DNA from: Erythrobacter sp. HKB08
Lineage (GTDB): Bacteria; Pseudomonadota; Alphaproteobacteria; Sphingomonadales; Sphingomonadaceae
Reading direction: 5' to 3'
Assembly: GCF_004114695.1 (NCBI RefSeq)
Contig: NZ_CP035310.1
Location: 1,967,501-2,031,500 of the forward strand
Length of the DNA stretch: 64,000 bases
Shown in pieces: positions 39,445-57,821 of this stretch. Below the pieces are notes generated by a model that saw nothing but the letters and a program-made list of their open reading frames with translations, was not told where the DNA came from and ran no database searches. Position 1 is the stretch's first letter. The number at the start of each line of letters is the position of its first letter. A program made the position numbers and the translations under genes.

Positions 39445-40341
39445 ATGGGCAAGGTACATCGCACGCCAGACGAGCGGTTCGCCGATATCCCGGATTATCC
39501 GTTCGACCCGCGCTACCACATCCTCGAGGGTGGGCTGCGCCTCCATTACGTCGACGAAGGGCCGCGCGATGCGACGCCGGTTCTGATGATGCACGGCGAG
39601 CCGAGCTGGAGCTTCCTCTATCGCAAGATGATCGGCCCCGTGGTCGAGGCGGGCTACCGCGTGCTAGCGCCCGACCTCATCGGGTTCGGCAAGTCGGACA
39701 AGCCTACCGCCAAAAGCGACTACACCTATGCCCTCCACGTCGCATGGATGCGCGAATGGTTCGAAGCGATGGGCCTGCGCAATGTCGTTCTCGCCTGCCA
39801 GGACTGGGGTTCACTCGTCGGCTTGCGCCTCGTCGCGGCGATGCCCGACCGCTTTGCCGGTGTCGTCCTGTCGAACGGAGGGCTCCCCGCCGGGCAGGAC
39901 CCGCCCCCGGCCTTTGCGAAATGGCGCAGCTTTTCGAAATACAGCCCGGTCTTCCCGATCGGCGGGATCATCCAGCGCGCGACGACGACCAAGCTGAGCG
40001 ACGCCGAAGTCGCCGCCTACGATGCTCCCTACGACACCCGTGCGAGCAAGGCGGGTGCGCGCATTTTCCCCTCGCTCGTCCCCTTGGGCGACAATGTTGC
40101 GGTTCCCGACCAGCTCGAAGCATGGAAGGTGCTCGAGAAATTCGAGGGTCCCTTCACCTGCTGCTTCAGCGACAAGGACCCGATCACGCGGGGCGGTGAA
40201 GCGGCCTTCGTCGACCGGGTCGCCGGCGCGAAGGACAATCCGCTGCATCGCAAGCTGTCCGGCGGGCACTTCATCCAGGAAGACGATCCGGCGGGGTTCG
40301 TCTCGGCAATCCTCGACACGGCGAAGCGCGCGGGCGTCTAG
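39445..40341 (+). CDS. Haloalkane dehalogenase (HLD-I type)
   Basis: This is an alpha/beta-hydrolase that replaces a halogen with water to give an alcohol. The 298-residue protein has the oxyanion motif HGEPSW (50-55), nucleophile Asp120 followed by Trp121 in ACQDWGSLVG, a late acid in FSDKDPI, and the catalytic His in SGGHFIQED. Asp-Trp after a Gln and the late-acid position fit haloalkane dehalogenases rather than esterases or epoxide hydrolases. It may act on natural marine organohalides. The methyltransferase is divergent with 63 bp between. Confidence 0.88.
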   Translation: MGKVHRTPDERFADIPDYPFDPRYHILEGGLRLHYVDEGPRDATPVLMMHGEPSWSFLYRKMIGPVVEAGYRVLAPDLIGFGKSDKPTAKSDYTYALHVAWMREWFEAMGLRNVVLACQDWGSLVGLRLVAAMPDRFAGVVLSNGGLPAGQDPPPAFAKWRSFSKYSPVFPIGGIIQRATTTKLSDAEVAAYDAPYDTRASKAGARIFPSLVPLGDNVAVPDQLEAWKVLEKFEGPFTCCFSDKDPITRGGEAAFVDRVAGAKDNPLHRKLSGGHFIQEDDPAGFVSAILDTAKRAGV

Positions 40342-43102: not shown

Positions 43103-43558
43103 GTGGCTCTTTCCGAAGAGGTTTTCGACCACTCTCCCGATCCGGATTATCCGGGTTGGCGCAACTGGAATCTCAAGGACCCGACGCTCTTCAACGGCGC
43201 GGTGATGGGTAAGCTCATCACCCGCGTCGAAGGCGACAAGTGCCGCCTGCGCATGTTCCCGGAGCGCAAGCACGAGAACCTGCAGGGTATCATCCACGGC
43301 GCGGTGACGCTCTCGCTCATCGACATCTCGATGTTCACGACGATGCACACGCTCGGCAGCGGCAATGCCGGCCCGTCCGTGACGCTCGAGCTTTCCACCC
43401 AGTTCACCGGGGGCGGCGATCCCACCAAGCCGCTCGACGCGGTGACCGAGATCATGCGCGAGACGGGCAAGCTGGTGTTCGTGCGCGGCACGGTCGAGCA
43501 GGACGATAATGTCGTCGCGGCCTATTCCGGCATAGTGCGCAAGTTCCTGCCGCGATGA
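43103..43558 (+). CDS. PaaI-like hotdog-fold thioesterase
   Basis: The gene starts with GTG immediately after the sdhB stop (TAAGTG). The 151-residue protein has the hotdog motif ENLQGIIHGAVTLSLIDISM, in which the His-Gly-Ala and Asp positions are those of PaaI-type acyl-CoA thioesterases. Its end overlaps zapE (ATGA at 43555-43558). It probably hydrolyses a CoA thioester; the acyl group is unknown. Confidence 0.85.
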   Translation: MALSEEVFDHSPDPDYPGWRNWNLKDPTLFNGAVMGKLITRVEGDKCRLRMFPERKHENLQGIIHGAVTLSLIDISMFTTMHTLGSGNAGPSVTLELSTQFTGGGDPTKPLDAVTEIMRETGKLVFVRGTVEQDDNVVAAYSGIVRKFLPR

Positions 43559-44673
43559 GCGGCGTCCTCGAACGCTACCGCGAACTCGTCGCGAACGGCG
43601 AATTGAGGCCCGATCGCGAACAGGAAGCTGCCGCAACGCGTCTCGAACAGCTCCAAGGCGAACTCGAATCCGTGCCGAAGCGCGGGAGCATCCTTTGGCG
43701 GGCGCTCAAGGGCAGACCGGATGCGCCGAAGGGTATCTACATGTGGGGCGGCGTCGGGCGTGGGAAATCCATGCTGATGGACCTGTTTCACGACACGCTG
43801 CAGATAGACCGCAAGCGGCGCGTCCATTTCCACGCGTTCATGCAAGAGGTCCACGGCATCCTGCGCGAAGAGCGCAAGTCGGAATCCGGCGACCCGATCC
43901 CGCCCACTGCGGACAGGCTGGCGCAGGACATTCGCTGCCTCGCTTTCGACGAGATGGTGGTGAACAACAGCGCGGACGCAATGATCATGAGCCGTCTGTT
44001 CCGTGCGCTGATCGTCGACAAGGGCGTGACCGTCGTGACCACTTCGAACCGCCCGCCGCAGGACCTCTACAAGGACGGCCTCAACCGCGAGCATTTCCTG
44101 CCCTTCATCGACCTGATCGAGGAAAAGACCGACGTCCTGCCGCTCAATGGGCCTGTCGATTATCGCCTCGAACGCCTGGCCGGCATCGAGAGCTGGCACA
44201 CCCCGCTTGGCGACGAGGCGACTGCGGCAGTGCGCGAGGCCTTCTTTCGCCTGACCGATTTCGAACCGGAAGACGCCGCCCACGTTCCATCGGCGGAACT
44301 GGATGTCGGCGGGAGCAGGACGATCCACGTGCCGAAATCGCTCAAGGGCGTCGCTGTCTTCAGCTTCAAGCGTCTATGCAGCGAAGCGCGCGGCGCGAGC
44401 GATTATCTCGCGATTGCAAGGAATTACCACACGGTCATTCTCGTCGGCATCCCGCAGATGGGACCGGAAGACCGCAACGAGGCCGCACGTTTCGTCACGC
44501 TGATCGACGCGCTCTACGAGCATCGCGTGAAGCTGTTCGCGACTGCCGCAGCAGAGCCTGAACAGCTATACCAGGCAGGCGACGGCAGCTTCGAGTTCGA
44601 ACGGACGGTCAGCCGCCTGATGGAAATGCAGAGCGACGATTACATGGCACTCGGCCACGGGACCGAAAGCTAG
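43555..44673 (+). CDS. zapE: Cell division protein ZapE / AFG1-type ATPase
   Basis: The 372-residue AAA-like ATPase matches ZapE, which acts on the Z ring in E. coli, and the AFG1 family linked to respiratory complexes in mitochondria. Walker A is GGVGRGKSM (65-73), Walker B is IRCLAFDEMVV, and VVTTSNRPPQDLYKDGLNR is a family hallmark. Its operon with sdhB favours the respiratory-chain side of its reported roles. The stop overlaps the convergent crotonase stop (CTAG, 44670-44673). Confidence 0.93.
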   Translation: MSGVLERYRELVANGELRPDREQEAAATRLEQLQGELESVPKRGSILWRALKGRPDAPKGIYMWGGVGRGKSMLMDLFHDTLQIDRKRRVHFHAFMQEVHGILREERKSESGDPIPPTADRLAQDIRCLAFDEMVVNNSADAMIMSRLFRALIVDKGVTVVTTSNRPPQDLYKDGLNREHFLPFIDLIEEKTDVLPLNGPVDYRLERLAGIESWHTPLGDEATAAVREAFFRLTDFEPEDAAHVPSAELDVGGSRTIHVPKSLKGVAVFSFKRLCSEARGASDYLAIARNYHTVILVGIPQMGPEDRNEAARFVTLIDALYEHRVKLFATAAAEPEQLYQAGDGSFEFERTVSRLMEMQSDDYMALGHGTES

Positions 44674-45629
44674 GCGGCGTTCGCGAGGCGCTGCTGCGCG
44701 CTGGTCAGCCGGTTCATGATCTTCAGGTCCTGCTCGCGCAGCTGGAGCGCAGCATCGGCCCAGATTTCGGTGATGCGGGTGAGCTCCTCAAGCTCGAGAT
44801 CCCACGACACCTTCATCGCCTTGCGCGCATTGACGAGGCCGGTGTGGCGACGCTCCGACTTCTTGATGAAATCGCGGCACGCCTCGATGCCCTCACCATC
44901 TTCGGCCAGGCAGTGCACCAGCCCCAGCTCGTGAAGCTGCTCGGCAGTGTAAGTCTCGTTAGAAACGATGATCCGGTCGGCCGCGGCGCTGCCCAGCTTG
45001 CGCGAGAGAAGCGCATGGGCGCCCATCCCGGGGAAGAGGCCGAACATGATTTCCGGGAGGCCGAAAGTCGCGCTCCGTTCGGCCACGATGTAGTCGAACG
45101 ACAGCAGTGCCTCGAAACCGCCGCCGAGGGCTGCACCCTGCACGAGGCCGATCGTCAGCATCGGGATGTCGAGCGTGTTGATGTTCCGGTGCAGAATTTC
45201 ACAGCAGCGATGGCCGTAATGCACCAGTCCTTCGCGGTTGCGCTCGCGGATCAGCTTCTGGAACAGCGCGAGGTCCCCGCCGAAGCAGAACACGCCCGGA
45301 GCGCGGCTTCCGAGGATGAGATAGCGCAGCGGCACCTTGCCCGGGCCGAAGTGCGAGCCGATCAGGCTCTGCCAGTTTTCGAAGTCCGACAGCATCGGCG
45401 GCGTGAAGCTCGGCCGGCCTTCCGGACGCATGAAGGTCCAGAGAGCCTGCTGCTCCTCTTGGTAGAGGACATCGAGTTCGGAGAGTTCGAATAGCGGTTG
45501 GGGAAGCCCTTCCGGCAGCGCGCGATCGACGACGAGGCCTTCGCTCTCGTCACCCAGCGGCATTACCGGTTCGTCACCGCCCAGTTCGGCAGCGCCCCGT
45601 TCTTCCAGCCCTGACCCCACTCGATCCAT
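44670..45629 (-). CDS. RpfF-like crotonase, candidate DSF-family signal synthase
   Basis: The 319-residue protein is a crotonase-fold enzyme with the two glutamates used by RpfF: Glu173 in GGGFEALLSFDY and Glu193 in FGLPEIMFGLFPGMGA. Their 20-residue spacing equals that of Glu141 and Glu161 in Xanthomonas RpfF, and FGLFPGMGA matches its helix. Ordinary enoyl-CoA hydratases differ here. RpfF enzymes make cis-2-unsaturated fatty-acid signals. The first ~45 residues are acidic and poorly conserved. No RpfC/RpfG sensor gene is in the window. It lies upstream of the exosortase locus on the same strand side, separated by 142 bp. Confidence 0.8.
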   Translation of the reverse strand: MDRVGSGLEERGAAELGGDEPVMPLGDESEGLVVDRALPEGLPQPLFELSELDVLYQEEQQALWTFMRPEGRPSFTPPMLSDFENWQSLIGSHFGPGKVPLRYLILGSRAPGVFCFGGDLALFQKLIRERNREGLVHYGHRCCEILHRNINTLDIPMLTIGLVQGAALGGGFEALLSFDYIVAERSATFGLPEIMFGLFPGMGAHALLSRKLGSAAADRIIVSNETYTAEQLHELGLVHCLAEDGEGIEACRDFIKKSERRHTGLVNARKAMKVSWDLELEELTRITEIWADAALQLREQDLKIMNRLTSAQQRLANAA

Positions 45630-45662
45630 AGACGACCCCTCTGGCGAATGCTTTTCTTTGAG

Positions 45663-45692
45663 AATCTACAAGAGGACTGACTCTGTTGGCAA
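45663..45692 (-). promoter_or_regulatory. Candidate promoter of the RpfF-like gene
   Basis: On the minus strand TTGCCA (45687-45692) and TAGATT (45663-45668) are separated by 18 bp, in an AT-richer stretch about 35 bp upstream of the ATG at 45629. An AGAGGGG ribosome-binding site precedes the start. Confidence 0.4.
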
Positions 45693-45722
45693 ACTTTTAT
45701 TTTTCCGAGCGGATTCTCTTCG

Positions 45723-45741
45723 CTGACCCAAACTAGGTCAG
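45723..45741. promoter_or_regulatory. Inverted repeat CTGACC-N7-GGTCAG, possible operator
   Basis: Half sites at 45723-45728 and 45736-45741 are exact complements. The element lies about 30 bp upstream of the candidate -35 of the RpfF-like gene and 31 bp past the amidotransferase stop. It could bind a dimeric regulator, or form a weak hairpin. A T run (45748-45753) lies too far for a standard plus-strand terminator. Confidence 0.4.
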
Positions 45742-45771
45742 TCGATAATTTTTTGAGTCATTTCCGTGGGC

Positions 45772-53609: not shown

Positions 53610-55253
53610 TCAGAAACCGTAGCGCAGGCCGACGAGGCCCGACGCGGCGGTCAGGTCTTCGAGGGCATCTTCGCTATCGATGTGATCGAGTGCGATCGCG
53701 GCGCGTACCGCCAGGCGATCGGTGAGCGAGCGGCTGTAAGCGGCGGAAGCACCGACCGCGAGCACTTCGCCCGCATTGTCGAAGCCGCTGTCCAGCAGCG
53801 TCATGTAGGCATTGGTCGTGAACCCGGCGCGGCTGCCGAGATCGCCCGACAGGAACCAGCTCATGTAATAGGCCTCGTCGGTCACGCCGTTGGCCGCATC
53901 GAGCACCGTGCCTTCGGGCGCGATGAACTTGCGATTGTCGTAGCCGATGCCGAGACCGGTCGAGAGACGGCCGACCTGCGTCGTGTAGTTCGCAGCGATC
54001 CCGCGCGAGCGGAAGACCGACGAACGCACCGAGCCGAGAGCGCCGGTGAGGCACTGGCTGCCTTCCGATCCGGCCACGCAGCCGCCGAGGTCGCCGGTCA
54101 GCGCATTGCGCGTTGCGGAGAATTCGGTCGGCAGGTTGGCGAGCGAGTTCGTCAGCAGCCCGCCGAAGCCGGAAATCGTGTCGTAGACCGAGACGTTCAG
54201 GGCCGAGCGCTGGTTGGGCGCCCAGGCGAAGCTGCCGTAGTAGGTATCGCTGTCATAGCGGCGCCCATAATGCGCCTCGAACGCGGTGCGCGAACTCGGA
54301 CGCCAGACGACGCCGACATCCCAGATGAGGCCATCGGTTTCGAAGGCGATGCGGCGCGGCTGGCTCTTGTCGGTGACCAGGCGTCCGTCATCGCCGATGA
54401 CCGGGTTGCCATTGGTATCGAGCACCGCGTCGCGGGCCGACACCTCGACATCCTCGTATCCAACGCCCGCGACCAGCGCCACATTGGGCGAAACCGGCAG
54501 GGTCACATCGCCGCGCACATAAACGTCGCGCACGCGCTGATCGAGGTTGGAGACATCCTCCTGCGCCCAGCCAGCGCCAACGCCGACACCGACCGGAAGC
54601 GGTTCGCCAGGACGCGTCGCGAGATTGATCGAGGCGCGCTGGCTCACGCTGTCGTCGAACACGTCGAGCGGATCGGCGCCCGGCGCGGTGACGATGGCGT
54701 CGGGCGTTTCGACCCGCGTGTAGCCGATGCGATACTGCGCCGCGACTGCGACATCGCCCGCATGGGTCGACAGGGTCGGACCGGCATAGGCGGAGTAGAT
54801 GCGGCTCTCGGTATCCTCGCCATTGAGGGCATTGAGCGTCGCGCCACCATTGCCATCGACGCGGGTGCGTGCGGCAAGAGCGCCCGCTTCCACCGTCAGC
54901 ACCTGCGGCACGATCGAGGTATAACCGCGCGCAACGCCGCTCAGCGTGTCGCTGGTCAGCGCGTCGTCGCCATAGCCGATGTTGTATTCGTAGCGGACCG
55001 AAACCGAGCCGCCCGAATTGCGGCCATTGACCGAAGCATCCACGCCGGTCGCGATCTGCGTATAGGTCACCACGTCGTCGCCCGGAGAAAGCTCGGCGAC
55101 GAAGATCTGGCTGACCTCGATATAGGGTTCGACATTGACGCGGCCATTGCCGGCCGAGCGGCGCTCCTCGCGCTCGCTATCCTGCGCCAGCGCCGGGCTT
55201 GCGCCTGCCGCTGCAAGGGCGATTGCCGCCGTCGAAAGGATGAGGTTCCGCAT
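53610..55253 (-). CDS. XrtA/PEP-CTERM-system outer-membrane beta-barrel
   Basis: The 547-residue protein has a signal peptide (MRNLILSTAAIALAAAGASP, cleavage after LAQ) and many alternating strands with YEYNIGY, AQYRIGYT and AAYSRSL. It ends in LRYGF, a C-terminal phenylalanine as expected for BAM-inserted barrels. It belongs to the outer-membrane protein group found in exosortase loci, likely the outer-membrane channel or anchor for the polysaccharide. The nearest neighbours are the ATPase and the autokinase genes. Confidence 0.88.
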   Translation of the reverse strand: MRNLILSTAAIALAAAGASPALAQDSEREERRSAGNGRVNVEPYIEVSQIFVAELSPGDDVVTYTQIATGVDASVNGRNSGGSVSVRYEYNIGYGDDALTSDTLSGVARGYTSIVPQVLTVEAGALAARTRVDGNGGATLNALNGEDTESRIYSAYAGPTLSTHAGDVAVAAQYRIGYTRVETPDAIVTAPGADPLDVFDDSVSQRASINLATRPGEPLPVGVGVGAGWAQEDVSNLDQRVRDVYVRGDVTLPVSPNVALVAGVGYEDVEVSARDAVLDTNGNPVIGDDGRLVTDKSQPRRIAFETDGLIWDVGVVWRPSSRTAFEAHYGRRYDSDTYYGSFAWAPNQRSALNVSVYDTISGFGGLLTNSLANLPTEFSATRNALTGDLGGCVAGSEGSQCLTGALGSVRSSVFRSRGIAANYTTQVGRLSTGLGIGYDNRKFIAPEGTVLDAANGVTDEAYYMSWFLSGDLGSRAGFTTNAYMTLLDSGFDNAGEVLAVGASAAYSRSLTDRLAVRAAIALDHIDSEDALEDLTAASGLVGLRYGF

Positions 55254-55258
55254 GGCCC

Positions 55259-56287
55259 CTACTCCTCGTATCCGTAATAGGACCCGAAATTCCGCCCGCT
55301 CGGGCTGAACTGGGTCGCGTTGAGCAGGAGCTTCACGTCCGGGCAGGCAGAGAGGAGCTGGTAGGCATCCTCCAGCGCATTCTGTCCCGTCTGGTCGGCA
55401 CGTGCGACGAGCACGCCCTGCCCGACATGCTTAGCAAGCTCCGCAGCCGAAGAAGCTGCGAGCGCCGGCGGCGTGTCGAAAATGACGATGCGATTGGGCG
55501 AGCCTGCAGTCAGGCGGTCGAGGACTTCCGCAGTGCGTTCGCTTGCGAGATACTCGCTGTCCGCGCTGCTCTGGTTGCCGGCGGGCATGACCCACAAGCC
55601 GCCGATATCGGTCCCCATGACGAGGTCTTCCGGCTTCACGTCCGGATTGGCGAGCGCATCCATGAAGCCGGGTCCCTTCGGCAGGCCGAAGGTCGAGAGG
55701 ATCGACGGTTTCGCGAAGTCCGCATCGATCAGCAGCACTTCGAGATCGCGCTCGCTCGACAGGGCGATCGCGAGGTTCGAGGCGCAGAAGGTCTTGCCGT
55801 CGCCGGGGTGCGGCGAGGTGATGAGGATTCGGCGCGAGGCAGCATTCCCGCGATCGCGCGCGGCGGCGAGAAGCTGGCGTTTGACGATGCGGAATTCCTC
55901 GCGCAGCGCGCTCGTCGCCGATTCCGGGACGATCAGCCCCTGCTCGCGCATATACGCGCGGTCGATTTCGTATTTCGGCCCGTTAAGCGAGACGGCAGGC
56001 TTGACCTGCTCGACGATCACTTCGGCAGGCGGCACATGGACCGGGAGCTTTGCCTCCTCCTTCGAAGGTTCAGCTTGCGCGGGCGCAGGTGCCGGTGCGG
56101 CAGGCTGTTCGTCTTTCACGCGGACCTTGGCGCGCTTCATCTCGCGCTCGGGCAGCTTGCCCTTGATCGGAGCCGACTTGAACGGGTCGAGGCCGAATGC
56201 GCCGCTGGCACGCTCGAACAGCGAGCTTTCGTCGCTGGCTTCGCCCTTACCTTCGCCGGGAAGCGGGATTTTCTTGTGTTCCGTCAT
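55259..56287 (-). CDS. XrtA-associated tyrosine autokinase (BY-kinase)
   Basis: The ATG at 56287 (MTEHKKIPLPGEG; 342 residues) was chosen; further upstream codons enter the chain-length gene. The N-terminal ~110 residues are low-complexity. The kinase has Walker A SPHPGDGKT (158-166), Walker A' LLIDADFAKPS (185-195) and Walker B IVIFDTPP, and ends in SYYGYEE, a short tyrosine cluster for autophosphorylation. Adaptor and kinase are separate genes here, with the chain-length protein as the likely adaptor. Confidence 0.9.
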   Translation of the reverse strand: MTEHKKIPLPGEGKGEASDESSLFERASGAFGLDPFKSAPIKGKLPEREMKRAKVRVKDEQPAAPAPAPAQAEPSKEEAKLPVHVPPAEVIVEQVKPAVSLNGPKYEIDRAYMREQGLIVPESATSALREEFRIVKRQLLAAARDRGNAASRRILITSPHPGDGKTFCASNLAIALSSERDLEVLLIDADFAKPSILSTFGLPKGPGFMDALANPDVKPEDLVMGTDIGGLWVMPAGNQSSADSEYLASERTAEVLDRLTAGSPNRIVIFDTPPALAASSAAELAKHVGQGVLVARADQTGQNALEDAYQLLSACPDVKLLLNATQFSPSGRNFGSYYGYEE

Positions 56288-56297
56288 CGTCCGCTCC

Positions 56298-57821
56298 TCA
56301 CGCCACCATGCCGCGCTGCACGAATTCGATCGCGAGCAGCAGGACGCACAGTCCCGCCAGCGCACCGGTTGCGCCGAAGAATTGCTTGAGCCGCTTGCGC
56401 TCCAGTTCGCGCGCAGCGTCGGTCAGCGTGTGCGAGATCGCACCGAGGACCGGCAGATCCATCACACGCTCGAGCTTGGCAGTCGTCGCGAAGGTCGAGC
56501 GAAGCTGGCCCATCGCGAAAGCCGCGCCGATACCGGCTGCGATGCCGGCGAAAAGCACGCCGAGGAGCAGCAGCGGACGGTTCGGAGCCGACGGCGAACG
56601 GGGCGTCGTCGGCGGGTCGATTACCTCGAACTTGAACGAACTGCGCTCGTTCTCGACCTGGCCACGCAGGCGCATTTCCTCGCGGTCCTTGAGCAGCTCG
56701 TCATACTTGTCCTTGAGCACCTGGTAATCGCGGCTGATGCGGTTGGCTTCGGCTGCGACGGCCGGTTCGTTCGCCTGGCTGGCGATCAGGGCCGACAGGT
56801 CGGCCTGGAGCGCTGCCTTGCGCGCCGTCAGAGCCTGTACATTGGCCTGGCGTTCGGAGCGGATGGAAACGAGCGCGGTGTAGGCCGGGTTCGGGCTGCC
56901 ACCGGCATTCGGATTCTCGCCTGCCGCCTGCTTGCGCAGCAATTCAACCTGCTTCTTGATCGCGATCACGTCAGGATGGCTGTCCGTCAGGCCGCGCGCC
57001 TGCAAAGAGGCAAGCTGCGACTGCGCCTGCATCAGCGCGCCGCGGGCGCTGCCGGTGTCGTTCGAACCACCGATGATGGTGCGCGGCGTTCCGGCGATCT
57101 GACCGTTGATGGCAGCAAGAGCGCTTTGCGCGGCTGCAAGGTCGGCGTCGACATCCCGCGATTCCGCACGCAGCGACTGCAGGCGCATCGAGACGCCGTC
57201 CGCACCGCCGATCAGGTCGGGGTTCTCGGCTTCGAAAGTCAGGCGGCGCTGTTCGGCCGCTTCGAGTTCCTTCTTCCGCTCTTCCAGTTGCTGGTCGAGG
57301 AAGACGATCGTCTCGGCGACTTCGCCGCGATTGCCCGCGATGTTTTCTTCGCGGAAGATGTCGATCAGCTTCTGCACGACGTCATGCGCCAGTGCCGCGT
57401 TCTCCGCATCGGACAGGTCGCTGCGACCGATTTCGGCGCTGAGCTCGAAGAGGTTGTCCTCCTGGCTCTTCACAGCGACCGATTCCGTCAGGTTCTCGAT
57501 TGCCGCTTCCATGTCGCGCTGGGTGGCGATTTCCTCGCCGAGCCGCGTCGAGCGGATGACTTTCTCGAGATTGACCGAGCTGGTCAGCGTCTGGCGTACG
57601 CGCGTGATGTCGCGCTCCGCACCGCCGGCGATCTTGAGCTGCTCGGCAAGCACGTCGTCGAGCTGCACATAGATGCGCGCGTTCGATTCATAGGCGTTGG
57701 GGATCATGGCAACGACCAGCCAGCCCAGGATGCACGCACCCCAGGCCACGCCGAGCGCCAGCCAGCGCCGTCGCCAGACCGAAAAGACTGCTGCGCGCAG
57801 ATCTTCGAAGACTTCGTTCAT
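56298..57821 (-). CDS. XrtA-system chain-length determinant protein (Wzz/GumC type)
   Basis: The 507-residue inner-membrane protein spans the membrane at about 18-36 and again near 425-445 and 485-505. Between them is a long periplasmic coiled coil (about 150-400) with DQQLEERKKELEAAEQRR. It sets exopolysaccharide chain length and partners the autokinase. It starts 16 bp after the export lipoprotein gene. Confidence 0.9.
   Translation of the reverse strand: MNEVFEDLRAAVFSVWRRRWLALGVAWGACILGWLVVAMIPNAYESNARIYVQLDDVLAEQLKIAGGAERDITRVRQTLTSSVNLEKVIRSTRLGEEIATQRDMEAAIENLTESVAVKSQEDNLFELSAEIGRSDLSDAENAALAHDVVQKLIDIFREENIAGNRGEVAETIVFLDQQLEERKKELEAAEQRRLTFEAENPDLIGGADGVSMRLQSLRAESRDVDADLAAAQSALAAINGQIAGTPRTIIGGSNDTGSARGALMQAQSQLASLQARGLTDSHPDVIAIKKQVELLRKQAAGENPNAGGSPNPAYTALVSIRSERQANVQALTARKAALQADLSALIASQANEPAVAAEANRISRDYQVLKDKYDELLKDREEMRLRGQVENERSSFKFEVIDPPTTPRSPSAPNRPLLLLGVLFAGIAAGIGAAFAMGQLRSTFATTAKLERVMDLPVLGAISHTLTDAARELERKRLKQFFGATGALAGLCVLLLAIEFVQRGMVA

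Follow-up and report, generated by a model that had tools for sequence, protein, structure and literature searches.

The window analysed here, a stretch of 64,000 nucleotides from the genome of Erythrobacter sp. HKB08, carries on its reverse strand (44670-45629) a gene for a DSF synthase of the RpfF/DfsA type, 319 amino acids long and assigned by ORF calling, family model, fold and tree, which adjoins an exosortase-A polysaccharide locus. It is likely, in our judgement, that the enzyme makes a DSF-family signal acting via c-di-GMP, and that relocation has separated the synthase from its sensor, a GGDEF-EAL protein with a hydrophobic input domain (termed A1 in the following). What is new here is that, in a part of the loci examined, the synthases of relatives lie convergent with either an RpfC-type kinase or a GGDEF-EAL protein whose hydrophobic input domain has no name.

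In the mechanism we propose, the synthase would convert 3-hydroxyacyl-ACP drawn from fatty-acid synthesis to a cis-2-unsaturated acyl-ACP and, then, release the free fatty-acid signal, by analogy with RpfF/DfsA, for which the passage from 3-hydroxyacyl-ACP through cis-2-enoyl-ACP to the free acid is described in the available part of PMC4504480. The receptor of the signal would most likely be a 654-residue GGDEF-EAL protein whose gene lies at another site of the genome. To judge from the architecture of this protein, the signal would shift c-di-GMP turnover and, hence, the biofilm/exopolysaccharide state. We infer the product of the synthase, its sensing and the c-di-GMP output; control of the exosortase-A polysaccharide by the signal is speculative.

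Identity of the synthase

The open reading frame begins with ATG and runs for 319 codons to a stop. Three lines of evidence, namely the family model, the tree and the fold prediction, group its product with DSF synthases, apart from ordinary enoyl-CoA hydratases. Against NF006452, which NCBI names only 'crotonase/enoyl-CoA hydratase family protein', the protein scores 355 bits (cut-off 177). The synthase of locus L206, which passes the RpfF equivalog NF053515 at 580 bits, scores 412 bits in NF006452, and this model thus describes a wider family that includes RpfF. The window protein itself stays below the equivalog cut-off (210 bits against 550); in a phylum sample (n = 398), 62 genomes match at 1e-45, and just 3 of them reach that cut-off.

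In a sequence search of the PDB, the DSF synthases 7zq7, 3m6m, 5fus and 6dgn lead (1e-51 to 1e-43), the next crotonase following at 3e-16, and in a search with the predicted fold (33 sequences, pLDDT 77) the top 12 matches are all RpfF/DfsA chains, at 4e-17 or better, with ordinary hydratases next at 1e-10. Pseudomonas DspI, reported to produce a cis-2 acid, holds rank 30 in the fold search, amid ordinary hydratases, so that a ranking by fold cannot decide the question alone. A tree was built with 93 rows, namely the window protein, 85 relatives with three repeats, and seven crotonase paralogues of the same genome as sole outgroup. In it, the window protein and its relatives split from the paralogues with support of 100/100; the bootstrap had yet to settle completely, and the branches leading to the paralogues are long. 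The earlier note, which took the gene for a probable DSF-type synthase, had named placement with ordinary enoyl-CoA hydratases as one outcome that would overturn this reading, and the split is the opposite outcome.

That note had argued from the two catalytic glutamates of RpfF and their spacing, which are indeed kept: the pair is E173/E193, 20 residues apart, invariant across 14 clade members and conserved in 85/85 (E173) and 77/85 (E193) of the relative rows. However, both glutamates, at the same spacing, also occur in three of the seven ordinary crotonase paralogues of the genome, and the pair is therefore non-diagnostic; the proposal of a DSF-type synthase stands on NF006452, the PDB and fold searches and the tree, and its original argument does not discriminate. 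In eight rows, corresponding to seven genes (L128, L130, L132, L136, L140, which is also L208, L144 and L145), the second catalytic glutamate is replaced by aspartate, and all seven belong to one other proteobacterial family. Two glycines of the window protein, G118 and G170, correspond to G86 and G138 of the Xcc enzyme, as mapped in an ungapped stretch of the phmmer alignment with the glutamate of GGGFE taken as E141; roles of G86, G138, E141 and E161 in Xcc RpfF are given in the part of PMC9040811 that is available, where the two glycines are tied to thioesterase activity.

The exosortase-A neighbourhood

On its far side the synthase gene is convergent with the gene of ZapE (NF040713 of NCBIfam; 43555-44673, forward strand), which it overlaps by 4 bp, and ZapE is found in 75 of the 80 best relative loci. 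On the other side, an AT-rich gap of 142 bp (45630-45771, reverse strand), which may contain a promoter, separates the synthase from the gene directly upstream, that of the XrtA/PEP-CTERM amidotransferase (TIGR03108; 45772-47670). The genes that follow, likewise on the reverse strand and assigned by NCBIfam, encode an exosortase A fused to an EpsI-type domain (TIGR03109, TIGR02914; 47680-49242), an XrtA-system glycosyltransferase (TIGR03087; 49227-50534), a FemAB-type XrtA-associated protein (TIGR03019; 50468-51500, start approximate), an XrtA-system polysaccharide deacetylase (TIGR03006; 51529-52431), an XrtA-associated ATPase (TIGR03015; 52445-53593), an outer-membrane protein (53610-55253; a weak match to TIGR03016, below cut-off), an XrtA-associated tyrosine autokinase-like protein (TIGR03018, below cut-off; 55259-56365), a chain-length determinant (TIGR03007; 56298-57821), a polysaccharide export protein (TIGR03027; 57838-58482), an XrtA-associated PLP decarboxylase (TIGR03099; 58663-59889) and an XrtA-associated acyl-CoA ligase (TIGR03098; 59886-61412). 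From amidotransferase to ligase, all models apart from the outer-membrane and kinase ones are above the NCBIfam cut-off, and the synthase, 142 bp downstream of the amidotransferase on the same strand, does adjoin an exosortase polysaccharide cluster, as had been stated.

The 142-bp gap holds one perfect 6-bp hairpin; a conserved hairpin 5′ of the synthase was rejected, that of the window being missing from the close relatives listed (the first 34 of 80 loci scanned over 200 bp upstream). Elsewhere in the window, positions 39445-40341 presumably encode an alpha/beta-hydrolase resembling haloalkane dehalogenase.

In a family sample of 59 genomes from 58 genera, 20 genomes exceed the NF006452 cut-off, and in 15 of these 20 the synthase and exosortase A are no more than 10 kb apart. 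Among the 80 best loci, 62 have the amidotransferase directly upstream of the synthase and 58 have exosortase A at a distance of up to 6 kb, the misses including contig ends, insertions and losses. The first two counts argue that the adjacency did not arise by chance. Seen from the polysaccharide locus, 19 of the 38 family-sample genomes with exosortase A over cut-off carry the synthase somewhere, 15 of them within 10 kb. In genome G026 (L079:9655-14636), an ABC exporter and a HlyD-type partner are found between synthase and amidotransferase. Such extra genes were considered as sensors and rejected, being the ABC exporter and HlyD genes in L079 and FemAB-like and flippase genes in L085.

Sensor genes beside the synthases of relatives

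The neighbours of the synthase were surveyed in 57 relative loci, of which the family contributed 19, the class 18 and a phylum search another 20. Two profiles were run on all frames, namely A2, which represents the RpfC-type input domain and was derived from 11 alphaproteobacterial kinases, and A1, a different hydrophobic domain, from five GGDEF-EAL proteins including that of the genome under study. A convergent A2 kinase adjoins the synthase in 22 loci and a convergent A1 GGDEF-EAL protein in five, the gaps ranging from -63 to 241 bp. Of these, 11 loci with an A2 kinase and four with an A1 protein had supplied the profiles, and the independent profile finds are the other 11 and one (L198). 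A weak A1 match in L199 is on the same strand as the synthase. Fifteen loci are at the exosortase site with no adjacent sensor, and two more end at a contig edge. Neither sensor type is adjacent in L110, L111 and L113, although the synthase has sufficient flanking sequence to either side in these three; the neighbours tested with Pfam in L111 and L113 are not sensors, and in L111 a GGDEF-EAL frame was found 6 kb off. The remaining nine loci match neither A1 nor A2, with a GGDEF-EAL frame nearby by tblastn in eight (L189-L191, L193-L196 and L202) and none in L192.

A Pfam scan of ten synthase neighbours returned nine GGDEF-EAL or histidine-kinase proteins and one peptidase; the neighbour in L109 is a HisKA-HATPase-REC-Hpt protein. 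The best score (6e-102) of A2, a profile drawn solely from alphaproteobacteria, belongs to the kinase beside the RpfF of L206. Near the N-terminus of 8 of the 11 A2 rows is the motif DSEHEQ, which we take to be the same stretch as the DSF-binding N-terminal region of RpfC. In the Xanthomonas protein, DSF is bound by an N-terminal region of 22 residues, and a glutamate, E19, is reported to be kept among homologues that have that input domain (PMC5391125 and PMC6536496, in the parts available). Two members of the same family, L092 (G051) and L201 (G689), encode a DSF synthase of another kind, 38-41% identical, next to an RpfC-type kinase; the family thus contains two kinds of DSF system. In another, L107:6933-12987, two RpfC-type kinases flank the synthase, one convergent and one divergent.

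The candidate sensor of the genome

When the GGDEF-EAL protein adjoining the synthase in L089 was used as query, its residues 17-639 of 647, input domain included, matched G000:C1:2243757-2245616 of the genome under study (48% identity, 1e-181), the next four matches beginning at residue 207 or beyond (1e-105 at best). The corresponding open reading frame of 654 residues (G000:C1:2243694-2245658, equal to L161:6695-8659), 0.23 Mb from the synthase, consists of a hydrophobic input domain of about 220 residues followed by GGDEF and EAL domains, whose signature motifs (GGDEF, EAL, DDFG and AEGIE) are intact. Pfam finds GGDEF and EAL only, with nothing before residue 225 and no PAS, and the A1 input domain, marked by the motif RNxGRP, has no Pfam name and no NCBIfam model above cut-off; comparison of the A1 and A2 input domains detected no homology. 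The hydropathy of the N-termini of four relatives' sensors suggests membrane segments, and the sequence of the genome aligns with them; the input domain is probably transmembrane.

The candidate receptor is thus predicted from its sequence to be a GGDEF-EAL protein, probably membrane-bound, which is neither RpfC nor RpfR. The advice to look for RpfC/RpfR-like sensors elsewhere in the genome led to a GGDEF-EAL candidate, of neither of the kinds envisaged. What suggests fatty-acid sensing by the A1 input domain is its association with the synthase.

Association of synthase and sensor

In the family sample, A1 was found at 1e-15 in 23 genomes, that is in 19 of the 20 that bear the synthase and in 4 of the 39 that lack it (Fisher 1.1e-10), or in 19/20 and 1/39 without three weak matches (2.8e-13). 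As the donors of the A1 profile (G000, G013, G023, G035 and G043) are among the 19, the counts were also taken with these five excluded, giving 14/15 against 4/39 (1.3e-8), or against 1/39 without the weak matches (6.8e-11). The one genome with the synthase but not A1 is G051, in which an RpfC-type kinase adjoins the synthase; G044 has a strong sensor match and no synthase.

A kinship-aware test used an rpoB tree, which covers 56 of the genomes (three were without usable rpoB) and was obtained by a quick search, with long branches in one part. With the strong matches, seven pairs agree and one disagrees (p = 0.07), and with all matches the ratio is about 6 to 1 (p = 0.125). Leaving out G051, a post hoc choice made after the synthase tree, a mean of 6.7 of 7 pairs agree and none disagree (p = 0.016-0.031), and leaving out the five profile genomes there are four or five pairs, too few for 0.05 (p = 0.125 to 0.625). 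The association between synthase and sensor is, therefore, strong in the raw counts, with modest independent support once kinship is taken into account.

A second sample, 50 genomes searched from among the 80 best loci, of which at least five (L266, L281, L313, L315 and L340) are shared with the family sample, has A1 in 48 of its synthase-bearing genomes; it was not found in Erythrobacter crassostrea (L307) and in one MAG (L298), both of which bear the synthase. Erythrobacter sp. NAP1 is one of those that carry synthase and sensor together. In a class sample (n = 289), A1 occurs in five genomes, three of them weak matches, and NF006452 in 19.

Probable relocation of the synthase

In the synthase tree, the 16 rows from the exosortase site group together as a single clade (100/99) within a clade of 21 rows (100/99) whose other members (L094, L087, L198, L086 and L089) adjoin the A1 sensor. 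The order of genes, which were named by eye, is TonB receptor, hydrolase, sensor, synthase in L086 (G023) and TonB receptor, hydrolase, sensor, mdh at the sensor site of the genome under study. Of 53 sensor loci, among which some genomes are counted twice, 42 have the hydrolase close to the sensor. From the single nested clade and the gene order shared with L086, it follows that the synthase probably left the sensor site for the exosortase locus once. The ancestor would probably have carried synthase and sensor as a convergent pair, and the synthase probably moved a single time into the exosortase-A locus, in an Erythrobacteraceae-type lineage, while the sensor stayed put. In two genomes without the synthase, L184 (G047) and L186 (G014), a weakly matching sensor copy lies close to this hydrolase gene, as though it had drifted once the synthase was lost.

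Alternative explanations

The enzyme might be a DSF synthase whose signal is read by some other receptor, such as another kinase or a transcription factor, with the GGDEF-EAL protein a historical neighbour only. We consider this unlikely. In its favour, the sensor is unlinked to the synthase in this genome and its input domain is unlike that of RpfC, a few genomes have the synthase or the sensor alone, and the kinship-aware support is weak. Against it, the two genes are linked in relatives, at the same chromosomal site among others, and the sensor is present in 48 of 50 synthase-bearing genomes despite the genes lying apart. Furthermore, an RpfC-type input domain was not found in the genome, in which the RpfC input profile gave just a 27-residue linker match (1.3e-4). 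Hpt matches in the genome number three, a MASE1-like hybrid kinase and a CheA-like protein, classed as such by eye, and a frame of 259 residues, and an RpfC-type or Hpt-kinase receptor was rejected on the nature of the CheA-like and MASE1-like proteins and the linker-only match. The circuit of Xanthomonas, to which the earlier note had appealed, is thus not copied here.

The crotonase could, instead, be a biosynthetic enzyme of the exosortase-A locus that works with the acyl-CoA ligase and the PLP decarboxylase to provide or trim an acyl group, and no signal synthase at all, an account that we hold to be improbable. Its position in the XrtA locus is conserved, as this account would have it, and its presence tracks exosortase A, which is found in 19/20 synthase-bearing and 19/39 synthase-lacking genomes of the family sample (Fisher 0.0004); the kinship-aware test is uninformative for exosortase A, which is identical in 5.4 of 7 pairs. 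In seven loci (L285, L288, L293, L294, L298, L303 and L305), moreover, exactly the ligase and the decarboxylase are left side by side with the synthase, tblastn finding at the locus none of the genes from export protein to amidotransferase; three others (L300, L318 and L323) retain one or two exosortase core genes. The synthase also persists in loci that no longer contain the exosortase core. When the genomes of seven core-depleted loci (L285, L288, L298, L300, L305, L318 and L323) were searched for A1, it was present in all except that of L298, so that six whose locus has lost all or most of the core still have both synthase and sensor, which speaks against a biosynthetic role. So do the unlinked clade members, L086, L087, L089, L094 and L198, which adjoin sensors, with none of the window's exopolysaccharide genes found within reach of L086, L087, L089 and L094. 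Indeed, the presence of the synthase is tied more tightly to the A1 sensor than to exosortase A (4/39 against 19/39 in synthase-lacking genomes). The exosortase neighbourhood, on which the earlier note had relied, is a weaker clue to function than was assumed, but not an empty one.

Finally, an ordinary beta-oxidation enoyl-CoA hydratase, misread through the glutamates that three of its seven paralogues share at the same spacing, is rejected on the tree split, the fold ranking and a family score that greatly exceeds the scores from models of ordinary hydratases.

Comparison with known systems and implications

The DSF signalling system that we favour, acting via c-di-GMP, resembles known systems in its parts. 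With Xanthomonas RpfF (of the rpfF/rpfC/rpfG set), to which it is 36-38% identical, the window synthase shares NF006452 membership, catalytic residues and fold, and the convergent sensor gene of rpf and its RpfC-type kinases are matched in relatives; it differs in that no RpfC input domain was found in its genome, that the candidate sensor is a GGDEF-EAL enzyme and that the synthase is in an exosortase-A locus. The Burkholderia and Cronobacter RpfF/DfsA enzymes (5fus, 6dgn) have the same synthase fold at 31-32% identity. The RpfR system has a GGDEF-EAL partner, as the candidate sensor would be here; in the part of PMC6361424 that is available, rpfF and rpfR are convergent and RpfR has the layout FI-PAS-GGDEF-EAL. 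In contrast, the candidate sensor has a hydrophobic input region that lacks PAS and in which Pfam names no domain, and the synthase and sensor genes are separated. With respect to the exosortase-A (XrtA/PEP-CTERM) polysaccharide locus, whose XrtA-associated genes surround the window synthase, the DSF synthase is an added neighbour.

Since the accessible text of a review of c-di-GMP stimuli (PMC8846402) names RpfR as the DSF-sensing c-di-GMP enzyme, a membrane-embedded enzyme of this role would, so far as that text goes, be a new variant. Among the matches listed in searches of the open-access literature on DSF in Sphingomonadales/Alphaproteobacteria, exosortase and GGDEF, no description of a system of synthase and A1 sensor was found; a Bradyrhizobium FadD paper concerns, in its available part, RpfB (PMC10226988). 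The wider proposal is that there is a further class of DSF receptor, in which a membrane-embedded input domain (RNxGRP) is coupled to GGDEF-EAL and changes c-di-GMP without a phosphorelay, and that it serves as the resident quorum sensing of Erythrobacteraceae and some Novosphingobium, the synthase having been captured by the exosortase-A locus; here we see the balance as close to even, tipping slightly in favour.

If correct, the finding would provide a cell-to-cell signal for widespread environmental bacteria, the genera among the 80 best loci being Erythrobacter, Altererythrobacter, Pontixanthobacter, Croceicoccus and Novosphingobium. It would name both ends of the circuit and supply a receptor domain that is directly testable and, at the same time, would offer a lead on tying exosortase-A polysaccharide loci to population density.
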